Shown: piece by piece, positions 15,729 to 18,590 of the stretch
Position numbering within the stretch: position 1 is the stretch's first letter
How the letters are laid out: each line of letters begins with the position of its first letter
NCBI GenBank assembly: GCA_016776925.1
Contig: JADHSL010000006.1
Span: 1 to 64,000, forward strand
Reading direction: 5' to 3'
Length of the DNA: 64,000 bases
Source: Pirellulales bacterium
Lineage (GTDB): Bacteria; Planctomycetota; Planctomycetia; Pirellulales; UBA1268
Translations under genes and position numbers: made by a program
Notes under the pieces: model-generated
Told to the model about the DNA's origin: nothing
Databases searched by the model: none
What the model saw: the letters and a program-made list of their open reading frames with translations, nothing else

Positions 15729-17297
15729 CTATTCGTTTTTGTCAGTGACTTCTTCAGTGTGGTCGACAGATGGCCAGTAGTCTTCAAAATCAAATTCTGG
15801 GCTGTTGTCCAAATCGTGGCATTCGAGGCAATTGGAAATTACTTTTTGCTTACTTTCCGGCGTGTCGATTGACATGGCAAGTTCTTCCCGAAGTCTTTCA
15901 CGCTCAGTAAGGCTTGCACGAACATCACCTCTTTCAACGGCTGCATGAGCAGCGGCAGGACCATGGCAATTTTCACAGCCATTGTGAGCAAGGTGTGGTG
16001 TTTTCTGCATGCTGAGAAAGCCACCTTCAAAGGGTTCAAATCTCTGAGGTGCCCAACCGACAACGTGGCAGGAAAGACATTCCGGGTCACCGTCTCTTCG
16101 TGGCTCTTGATCTTCCAGAGTTGTAAGTGCATATGAATGAGAAGAGTTTTCCCAGACTTCGTAGGCATAGGTATGACAGTCCCCGCATGCATCACTTCCA
16201 GCAAATCGACGACCAGTCTGATGTCGCACGGGTGAAAGGCCTAACCCCGTAAGTCCGAGCGATTCAAGCTGCCGCTGGTACGTAGCAAGTAAATCGATCA
16301 TGTCTTCGGCTTCACCCCATCGAGCATCAAGTGGCACTCGTTGGCTCTTTAGCGGGTCATCTTTGTTGTCAAAGAAACCGATTGTCACAGCAAACATACC
16401 TTTGTGGCCGAGCTCTACGAGTCTCGCCCCATTTTCTAAAACAGGAAGTTTTGAAGGTGGCTCATCGGCACCTCCAGCGGTAACAACGATATCAAACTGA
16501 GGGAAAGACTTGGCTAAGGAACGTGCCTCTTCGGGATTTCCCCATGAGAGAAGTACATAGTGGTCGCACAGACCGGGCTGCATTAACTTGACGACTTCTT
16601 GGAGTGCTGCTTCCGCGGCGGTAACTTCAATTGCCGCGTTGCGGATGTCTCCGGATTTACTGTTTCCGAGCACCGAGGTAATGCCAATACGAAGACCACC
16701 AATTTCGACAACACGAAATCGAGGAGTAATGTTCGCATCGAGCCCAAGTAGGCCCACATTTGCACTGAGGAAAGGAGTCGGTTCGTTACCAACGGGTGCA
16801 ACAGCTGCAACAAGTTCTTCTGCTGGTAAGCGTAAGTCTGCAGGTCCAAATCCAATGCCGCTATAGCCCATTTGTCGTAAGCCATCTGCAATCGATTGGT
16901 ATTTAACCTCTGCCTGCCGGCCAAACCTCTTCACAAGGCCACCCAGATCGACTGCCACAACAGGCCAGCCCTCTGACTTGAGTGCAGTTAAGAAATTCTG
17001 TCGTCTACTAAGCCCGCCTTTTTGGTTTTCTTTTCCAGTGCAGCCACAGGGTTCTATGTAACCATCAAGTTCACCGGTGATAACGAGGACGGCCTGAGGA
17101 GTAGGCCAGTCGGTAAAGAGGCTTCCGTTTCGCTGCCTAAATTCTTCTTCAACCGTATCAGAAATGCCTTGCCCTCGATTGGGTGTGGCGGCGGATACTT
17201 TGGCCGAGAATATGCCAACTGATGCAATTGCAAGAAGTGTAATGCGGGCACATCGGCATGTGATTGACTGCAGAATAATTTGTAAATGACAGCGCAT
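15729..17297 (-). CDS. Exported metallophosphatase-like domain fused to a four-haem c-type cytochrome
   Basis: Two modules are fused. The N-terminal part resembles 5'-nucleotidase/calcineurin-type metallophosphatases of the kind carrying GYIEPCGCTGKENQKGGLSRR (residues 95-115 counted from the furthest upstream start at 17345). The C-terminal part has four c-type haem motifs in that numbering: CGDCH 387-391, CLSCH 423-427, CENCH 457-461 and CLECH 506-510, as in cytochrome c554-like proteins. I place the start at ATG 17297, which leaves a signal peptide (ITLLAIASVGIFSAKVSAA) for export to the periplasm where haem is attached. The DUF1573 gene lies 100 bases upstream on the same strand. The substrate is unknown; an electron-transfer role is inferred. 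Confidence 0.85.
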   Translation of the reverse strand: MRCHLQIILQSITCRCARITLLAIASVGIFSAKVSAATPNRGQGISDTVEEEFRQRNGSLFTDWPTPQAVLVITGELDGYIEPCGCTGKENQKGGLSRRQNFLTALKSEGWPVVAVDLGGLVKRFGRQAEVKYQSIADGLRQMGYSGIGFGPADLRLPAEELVAAVAPVGNEPTPFLSANVGLLGLDANITPRFRVVEIGGLRIGITSVLGNSKSGDIRNAAIEVTAAEAALQEVVKLMQPGLCDHYVLLSWGNPEEARSLAKSFPQFDIVVTAGGADEPPSKLPVLENGARLVELGHKGMFAVTIGFFDNKDDPLKSQRVPLDARWGEAEDMIDLLATYQRQLESLGLTGLGLSPVRHQTGRRFAGSDACGDCHTYAYEVWENSSHSYALTTLEDQEPRRDGDPECLSCHVVGWAPQRFEPFEGGFLSMQKTPHLAHNGCENCHGPAAAHAAVERGDVRASLTERERLREELAMSIDTPESKQKVISNCLECHDLDNSPEFDFEDYWPSVDHTEEVTDKNE

Positions 17298-17396
17298 AGA
17301 TGTATGAGGACCAACAAAGCTTGAACTGCGTTCGTAGATAGACACAACAAAACCTTTCCGACCATTATTATCGACTGCATCCCAGCAGATCGTTCA

Positions 17397-18590
17397 CTAT
17401 TCGGCAATGGCAACGCACACCGGAATCTTTAAAGTGGGTGTGCTGGGGTGACCAGTTTCCAGAAGGATATAGCCCTGCTCGGCGGTTTTGGTACATAAAT
17501 TATTTGCTGGTGGTGCTCCTGGCGGAATCTGGATTTCAATGCCAATCCGAACAACATCTCCCCCCCCTATCTGGCTAGGAGGATCGATTTTGACATTGAG
17601 GCCCTCTGGAACAATGTCGACGACACGAGGTCGCACGTTGTCACGAAATTCGCCCTTTGCCGTCAGAAAGATCTTCGTGTTCAGGCCAGTTTGGCTGGAT
17701 ACCGTTCCCAGCCGCAATGCGTTGTACGTGCGATCCCATTTGCGGCCAACAAGCATGAGGTCCCCACTGACGATGCCCTCTACTGGGACGACAGCTGTAA
17801 TGTCTTCCTCGTCGAGAGAAAAAGAAGCCTCAACAGATGTCCTGATCATTCCCAATGGCAGACCTGGCGAGATATCAATAGATAGAAGGAAACCACCCTT
17901 TGCTTCCGGTTCATCGTGTAACTCTTCTTGTGTAAGTGGGCGATCCTCTATACCTATTCTGTCAGCAAAAGAATCATCAGCGATTCGGCACTTTTTGAGA
18001 CGGGGGAGTTGGTCACTAAAAGTGTAGATTTTCACCTCGGCCTGAGATGCCGTATTGGCGGAAATTCCAGACATCACAATGCCATTCGGTTCGGCCTTCC
18101 ATGTTGGAATCACGGTACCTTCAATGGAGAATGCAATTTCTGGCCGACCTGTGTCGTTTGTAAGTATCGAGGCACTCTGTCGGAACGGCCCCCCTTCACC
18201 TTTGCCTGTCCATTTTATCCGCACGACGATCTCATCACCTGCTGAAACATTTCTGCTATTTTTCCCCTCGCCCTCACCCTCGAAGTCACTCACAGTGCAC
18301 GTGCAACTTGTTGTTCCTTTCGTGATCAGGAGGGGGGCTGTTCCTGCATTACGTACAACAAAAGCGTGACTGCCGGTGCCACCGAGGCTTACTCGACCAA
18401 AGTTATAGGTGGTCTCAGAGGTTTGCGCCACCGGTCGTGGACCAGATGACTTGGCTGAACGAGTCGCGAATGCCCCAGTTCGTAGAGGCGTTGTTGTCGC
18501 CCTCAGCAGGGCTGTACCTGAGCCAGTCAAGCTGCCAAGTAGTGCAGCAATGATCGCAACGGACCATGGATTTGGCAGGTTAAGCTTCAT
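17397..18590 (-). CDS. Exported DUF1573 protein
   Basis: The 397-residue protein has an N-terminal signal-type hydrophobic segment (SVAIIAALLGSLTGSGTALL). It then carries the DUF1573 motif near residues 62-95: YNFGRVSLGGTGSHAFVVRN followed by GTAPLLITKGTTSCTCT, an Ig-like beta fold typical of planctomycete and Bacteroidetes exported proteins. The remaining 300 residues look like further beta-sandwich units (VRIKWTGKGEGG, then PVVPVEGIV-like strands). Function is unknown; such domains are thought to act in envelope or adhesion contexts. It lies upstream of the cytochrome fusion on the same strand, so the two may be expressed together. proS is downstream of neither; it is transcribed separately toward this gene. 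Confidence 0.82.
   Translation of the reverse strand: MKLNLPNPWSVAIIAALLGSLTGSGTALLRATTTPLRTGAFATRSAKSSGPRPVAQTSETTYNFGRVSLGGTGSHAFVVRNAGTAPLLITKGTTSCTCTVSDFEGEGEGKNSRNVSAGDEIVVRIKWTGKGEGGPFRQSASILTNDTGRPEIAFSIEGTVIPTWKAEPNGIVMSGISANTASQAEVKIYTFSDQLPRLKKCRIADDSFADRIGIEDRPLTQEELHDEPEAKGGFLLSIDISPGLPLGMIRTSVEASFSLDEEDITAVVPVEGIVSGDLMLVGRKWDRTYNALRLGTVSSQTGLNTKIFLTAKGEFRDNVRPRVVDIVPEGLNVKIDPPSQIGGGDVVRIGIEIQIPPGAPPANNLCTKTAEQGYILLETGHPSTPTLKIPVCVAIAE

Follow-up and report, generated by a model that had tools for sequence, protein, structure and literature searches.

A nucleotidase-fold/tetrahaem cytochrome fusion paired with a DUF1573 protein in Planctomycetota: a candidate periplasmic thiol redox system

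Described relatives and the U–D locus

The UshA-like (seleno)proteins of NF041198, which carry a PCGU motif and correspond to the COG0737-like CxU selenoprotein of the Global Ocean Sampling survey, are described relatives of a protein, designated U, that is encoded beside a DUF1573 protein, designated D, in a 64,000-nucleotide stretch of Pirellulales DNA (contig JADHSL010000006.1, positions 1 to 64,000; the whole stretch is referred to as the window). They share with U the nucleotidase-like plus cytochrome architecture and the PCGC/PCGU site. In published tables, UshA-like proteins are entered as a CxU selenoprotein family and DUF1573/OS_HP2 proteins as a UxC or UGC family (PMC2398784, PMC13188914, PMC9312934); D has the cysteine pair of the latter family (PF07610; OS_HP2, NF041425). 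The fold of U is common to the 5'-nucleotidases (UshA, CD73, and 2z1a of T. thermophilus) and SoxB (Z 26–28), and the C-terminus of UshA is a substrate-binding domain according to PMC8071527. Nitrosomonas cytochrome c554 (1bvb; PF13435) matches residues 381–476 of U locally in sequence. The Sox system (SoxB, SoxYZ, and SoxAX) is alike in layout alone, with a nucleotidase-fold protein, a cysteine-bearing carrier, and c-type haems.

The UshA-like family and its cytochrome part are thus already catalogued, and U is a variant of that kind: a sub-threshold, cysteine-form relative of NF041198 that is paired with a DUF1573 protein. The original prediction regarded the fusion as lacking an explained function; NF041198 indeed has none assigned, but the fusion is not new, as that model already spans both parts. 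Unlike the 5'-nucleotidases and SoxB, U lacks the dinuclear metal ligands and bears a tetrahaem region where UshA has its substrate-binding domain. Its haem region differs from cytochrome c554 in being fused to a nucleotidase-like domain, and D differs from OS_HP2 in its sub-threshold score, extra immunoglobulin (Ig)-like domains, and N-terminal anchor. In contrast to the Sox system, U has no metal site, D is of the HYDIN/ASH type, and nothing points to a thiosulfate substrate. In the portions available of the literature searched, no description was found of the DUF1573 pairing, of conservation across the class, of metal-site loss, or of the adjacency to hydrazine synthase. We estimate a probability of roughly 40% that U works in the periplasm as a redox enzyme whose dithiol (or thiol-selenol) is coupled to the haems, and that the DUF1573 protein is its thiol partner; this proposal is based on sequence comparison and structural modelling.

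U is encoded on the minus strand at 15729–17345 as a 538-aa open reading frame (ORF) starting from GTG. D (397 aa; 17397–18590) lies upstream on the same strand, as do all the features given below, with a gap of 51 bp (17346–17396), and the two genes probably constitute one operon and would be co-transcribed. Translation of U probably starts from the ATG of residue 17 (17297), which looks better than the GTG and opens a putative signal peptide read from the sequence (residues 17–52; 17190–17297). The ORFs, strand, coordinates, four CxxCH motifs, and GYIEPCGC segment (residues 95–102) originally reported for this phosphatase-fold/haem fusion beside a DUF1573 protein were all confirmed. Export of both proteins, claimed at the same time, agrees with the hydrophobic N-terminus of U, which ends at KVSA before ATP and forms a helix (residues 18–43) in the model, and with the N-terminal helix modelled at residues 8–33 of the PF07610-matching D.

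The nucleotidase-like domain, Cys-Gly-Cys motif, and haems of U

A 5'-nucleotidase/SoxB-fold domain that has lost its metal ligands was assigned to residues 81–366 (16248–17105) on the basis of a profile match, a model, fold comparison, and alignment. NF041198 matches residues 86–317 with 175 bits, below the NCBIfam cut-off of 275, and the window genome has no NF041198 match above the curated cut-off. At E ≤ 1, U has neither a Pfam phosphatase or metallophosphatase match nor an NCBIfam match to TIGR04486 (SoxB). The AlphaFold2 model of U, built from a 65-sequence alignment, has a predicted local distance difference test (pLDDT) value of 91.2 and a predicted template modelling (pTM) score of 0.87, and its best Foldseek row has an E-value of 2.3e-16. 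Residues ~81–437 resemble the 5'-nucleotidase 2z1a (Z 27.9, root mean square deviation (rmsd) 3.2, 278 aligned residues), and the comparison with SoxB 2wdc gave similar values (Z 26.4, rmsd 3.0, 273 aligned).

The metal ligand motifs of 5'-nucleotidases and calcineurin-like enzymes are D-x-H, GD, GNH(E/D), H, and GHxH. The window U has E92/D94, G136, P168-A169, W268, and G292/D294 at these positions, so that D-x-H and GNH are broken. In the order-level alignment of 65 sequences, the Asp of D-x-H (residue 92) mostly gives way to E, R or Q. The His of this motif (residue 94) is retained in 14 sequences and is D in 27, and the Asp of GD (residue 136) is retained in only 2, with G in 33 and N in 27. 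The GNH position is chiefly P-D or P followed by another residue, GHxH is chiefly GG, and the motif-IV histidine is retained in 34. The phylum alignment comprises 64 sequences including that of the window (44 plus 20 from other orders of the class); among these, three of the eight canonical ligands are kept in 7 sequences, two in 17, one in 21, and none in 19, and a complete D-x-H/GNH set was found in 0 of 64. Because every one of the 64 sequences keeps at most three of the eight ligands, U does not look like a working metallophosphatase, the dinuclear metal site appearing to be lost, and a functional phosphatase role was rejected on this ground. The original prediction of a phosphatase-like domain therefore stands as regards the fold and fails as regards the function: its metal-ligand check on the calcineurin fold came out negative by sequence in the window and in all 64 planctomycete proteins.

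The PCGC motif (residues 99–102; 17040–17051) follows the first strand (E85–90) and lies in the loop where the fold normally bears the D-x-H metal ligands. C100 and C102 are present in 65/65 order-level sequences. In the phylum alignment, where three of the 64 rows lack the N-terminus and were left out of the count, all 61 rows reaching the motif have C100 and 60 of them have C102, with a TGA form (described below) entered as Cys. The GG..R segment that follows PCGC is also present in ordinary 5'-nucleotidases, so the distinctive element is PCGC itself. GYIEPCGC had been read as a phosphatase motif; it is instead the Cys-Gly-Cys within it that is conserved, beside the lost ligands. Since both of these cysteines and the haem-motif Cys and His residues are invariant in the 65-sequence alignment, these features of U are not a matter of chance. 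Paralogues of U with the segment PCGCTSNQSGG occur at L062:5470-6840, L072:5677-7719, and L229:7314-8645, with no DUF1573 neighbour found. Three further loci (L238, L239, and L242) contain two tandem U-like genes, with VCGC in one copy and no N-terminal motif region in the other.

A candidate selenocysteine (Sec) form of U was identified by its reading frame at L221:7700-9770 (minus strand; genome G377), where PCG is followed by TGA at the second cysteine codon and the frame is otherwise open and has four haem motifs. A SelB match that exceeds the curated cut-off was found in G377, and none that exceeds it in the window genome. A Sec insertion sequence (SECIS) element in L221 is possible. The L221 frame opens with a stretch that looks Ig/FN3-like by eye, and no adjoining DUF1573-profile match was seen in the wider region. 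As Sec is found at the motif of either U or D in the tabulated families, these sequence forms would argue for chalcogen catalysis.

The C-terminal cytochrome part of U is covered by PF13435 (Cytochrome_C554; 52.2 bits against a Pfam cut-off of 20.8) and by positions 351–519 of the NF041198 model. The four haem motifs are CGDCH (residues 387–391; 16173–16187), CLSCH (423–427; 16065–16079), CENCH (457–461; 15963–15977), and CLECH (506–510; 15816–15830), with Cys and His of all four invariant at the order level. Among the 64 phylum sequences, His403 and His467 are conserved in 64/64 and His529 in 58/64; the six rows without His529, which have Cys instead, all come from both tandem copies of L238, L239, and L242. 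Judging from this conservation, His403, His467, and His529 are likely distal haem ligands. His375 is present in 58/65 order-level sequences and in only 25/64 phylum-wide, so one haem (the fourth) probably has no universally conserved distal ligand.

D and its pairing with U across Planctomycetota

D matches PF07610 (DUF1573) with 56.2 bits (Pfam cut-off 26.1) over residues 57–160 (18111–18422), and its score of 56.8 bits to NF041425 (OS_HP2 family (seleno)protein) is below the cut-off of 100. The model of D from 43 sequences (pLDDT 90.8, pTM 0.69) consists of the N-terminal anchor or signal helix and approximately three Ig-like domains, the number being judged from length and strand pattern. 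Residues 43–163 resemble the HYDIN/ASH-type structure 2e6j (Z 10.3, rmsd 3.0, 106 aligned), and no SoxYZ row appeared in the fold-match lists, which excludes nothing. The cysteine pair C96-T-C98 (18297–18305), recognized from sequence and alignment, is present as C-x-C in 140/143 aligned sequences, a set from which six truncated rows were put aside and in which some rows are the same contig fetched twice. Outside the order, the 16 D candidates of the class all have a two-cysteine motif, 13 as C-x-C and 3 as C-x-x-C. The number of DUF1573 matches per genome ranges from one in G266 (the U neighbour) through two in the window genome to as many as 12 in G392. The second match of the window genome (G000:C62:65031-65321) is on a contig other than that of U.

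The distribution of U and D was sampled within Planctomycetota. U was found in 141/146 genomes of the order, including that of the window, in 93/93 order genomes with at least 90% completeness and at most 5% contamination, and in 59/59 genomes sampled from the class (E ≤ 1e-40). At E ≤ 1e-3 it was found in 185/246 genomes of the phylum, where many weak matches span only one part of the protein.

Among 60 loci of the order, two (L062 and L072) are the unpaired paralogues mentioned above. In 52 of the remaining 58, D is directly upstream of U on the same strand, with gaps of -343 to 151 bp when the longest ORFs are taken. Two contigs (L041 and L047) end within ~400 bp of U and leave no room to see D, which gives 52 of 56 loci with room; no D was found beside U in L048, L050, L067, and L082. 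A set of 80 named loci, partly from the same contigs, gave D upstream in 72 of the 77 with room (L103, L131, and L168 had none), with a gap of up to 737 bp, and none was found in five. D is beside U in 16/20 loci from other orders of the class and in 7/12 loci of family f21, where ~1.3–1.5 kb of upstream sequence was covered. Deeper in the phylum, the pair occurs in 9/9 loci of family f62, 2/2 of f93, and 1/1 of f58; a tenth f62 genome (G215) gave a weak U match only (E 1.6e-6), the L192 locus of G377 gave no D, and D is downstream of U in L201. In L234 the two are naturally fused into a single 1017-aa chain of DUF1573, Ig-like domains, an UshA-like part (with PCTC), and four haem motifs, which scores 107.8 bits to NF041425 (over the cut-off of 100) and 242 to NF041198. 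The pairing of D and U is ancient, as judged from these sequences, and the recurrent association anticipated by the original prediction was borne out by the order loci with room and by f62.

The window neighbours of D–U are translation-factor-like and prolyl-tRNA-synthetase-like from sequences read by eye and seem unrelated. An O-antigen-ligase (Wzy_C) type gene is upstream of D–U in 20 loci (15 of the order and L223–L227), accompanied in 15 of the 20 by a GT4 gene; these calls were made with Pfam on representatives and by clustering for the remainder, and the neighbours seemed uninformative. Equally uninformative were the galT- and glycogen-synthase-like genes downstream in the f62 loci, recognized by eye from their starting sequences.

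Proposed function and alternatives

In the proposed mechanism, U would be an exported redox protein on a 5'-nucleotidase/SoxB scaffold from which the metal-dependent phosphatase site has been lost. The CGC dithiol, interchangeable with Cys-Gly-Sec, would be its working centre and may exchange electrons with the fused tetrahaem domain. The membrane-anchored D, with its cysteine pair, may serve as a dithiol donor or acceptor, or as a carrier of a sulfur or selenium substrate. Together, U and D would make up a thiol relay in the periplasm that is coupled to haem, with a layout comparable to that of SoxB, SoxYZ, and a cytochrome, or of Mia40 (CPC) and cytochrome c.

Several observations weigh against this proposal. 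No D was found next door in 4/20 loci of other orders and in 5/12 of f21, and 5/16 of the D candidates from other orders score only 21–50 bits. The D proteins of L065, L130, and L146 lack both cysteines, and the second motif cysteine of U is Phe in L205. Three post-UGA stretches of L221, each starting with the TGA or shortly ahead of it, were compared in folding with 200 shuffles; 19, 4, and 19 of the shuffles, respectively, reached an equally good fold. The predicted exported proteins of two genomes also show no bias towards even cysteine numbers (see below).

The alternative that survives best, although we regard it as somewhat unlikely, is that the nucleotidase-like domain is inert and acts only as a docking scaffold, with U a periplasmic electron carrier resembling cytochrome c554 that this domain positions on a partner such as hydrazine synthase. 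The C554-type haem region is consistent with this, as are the genes around the pair in anammox-type loci. In L204:7958-15533, L208:8325-15672, and L209:8411-15912 (f62), D–U lies 226–313 bp downstream of hydrazine synthase genes and is co-directional with them; the call was made with HZS_alpha (PF18582) on the L204 member and by clustering for the other two. In L211 and L212, a divergent two-gene unit is upstream of D–U, one member of which has eight CxxCH motifs (PF13447 in L211). The Kuenenia hydrazine synthase cluster is kuste2854–2861 with hzsA as the last gene, according to PMC6423088 and PMC12053348. A Kuenenia D–U would thus sit beyond kuste2861, and no mention of kuste2862 was found in the literature searched. 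However, an inert scaffold leaves unexplained the conserved CGC by the lost metal site, its Sec version, and the conserved cysteine pair of the partner, and, with U present in each of the 59 class genomes sampled, hydrazine synthase is probably not its partner in general.

Another reading, also unlikely, is that Cu, Fe or Zn is bound by thiolates at the CGC of U and likewise at the C-x-C of D, and that the pair handles or reduces a metal ion, with the haems giving or taking electrons. This would suit the five loci (L215, L220, L222, L233, and L235) in which U is near an importer (SBP_bac_6, BPD_transp, and ABC-TOBE_2), in three of which (L215, L220, and L235) a cytochrome with five CxxCH motifs is also nearby; the calls were made with Pfam on the L235 proteins and by clustering elsewhere. 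These five loci also share a conserved protein of ~700 aa, for which the L235 and L220 members gave no Pfam match. Iron(III)-binding proteins account for many of the nearest solved structures related to the L233 binding protein, but its top PDB match is 4r72, which we take to be AfuA, a sugar-phosphate binder. Iron-binding proteins carry paired tyrosines, and in the comparison with 1y4t these align to Asp in L233. For four of the binding proteins, the best NCBIfam matches, which fall below cut-off, are to models of aminoethylphosphonate binding. With importer neighbours in five loci only and phosphonate binders as best matches, iron import was rejected as a general role of U–D. Furthermore, the Sec form of U and the C-x-x-C versions of D suit redox chemistry better than metal binding.

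A third possibility, which appears very unlikely, is that U–D is the absent disulfide-forming oxidase, passing electrons from thiols to cytochrome c in the manner of Mia40 or DsbB. VKOR, DsbB, and DSBA were found in 0/24 genomes each of the window's family (G000–G023, several of which are incomplete) while U is nearly universal, so that the exported proteome of this family is apparently without a known disulfide-forming system. In 15 other genomes of the order, VKOR was found in 8, DsbB in 3, and DSBA over the cut-off in 4. Even cysteine counts, however, were not favoured among predicted exported proteins (19/38 in G010 and 21/42 in G085, compared with 32/58 and 49/117 in the respective cytoplasmic sets); in the window alone they were found in 5/7 exported proteins. 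Either structural disulfides are few or the test, which used crude gene calling and ad hoc signal-peptide rules, is powerless, as the VKOR-bearing control G085 was unbiased too. A general structural-disulfide role for U–D is not favoured because of this missing bias, a negative result of a weak test. Finally, the 5'-nucleotidase fold of U would fit an active phosphatase or nucleotidase under redox control by the haems, but this is highly improbable given the ligand loss in all 64 sequences and the missing Pfam metallophosphatase match.

The haem-coupled dithiol enzyme with a DUF1573 partner can be extended into a bolder picture, which we offer as tentative and more doubtful than the proposal itself. 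U and D would then form a periplasmic redox machine found throughout the class, its Cys/Sec dithiol centre having arisen by remodelling of a nucleotidase active site. This centre would exchange electrons with four haems, and the Ig-like protein with its cysteine pair would act as the carrier. Such a machine would be a novel type of thiol/chalcogen oxidoreductase driven by cytochromes, and in some anammox bacteria it would have been recruited beside hydrazine synthase.

U, a four-haem protein whose active site has been rebuilt, is encoded in every class genome sampled, and no assigned function was found for it. The adjacency to hydrazine synthase provides a concrete physiological lead. In Planctomycetota, two selenoprotein families that are listed separately are one syntenic unit, and their functions are testable together. 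If a phosphatase fold has indeed been turned into a redox centre, U would represent an instructive evolutionary switch.

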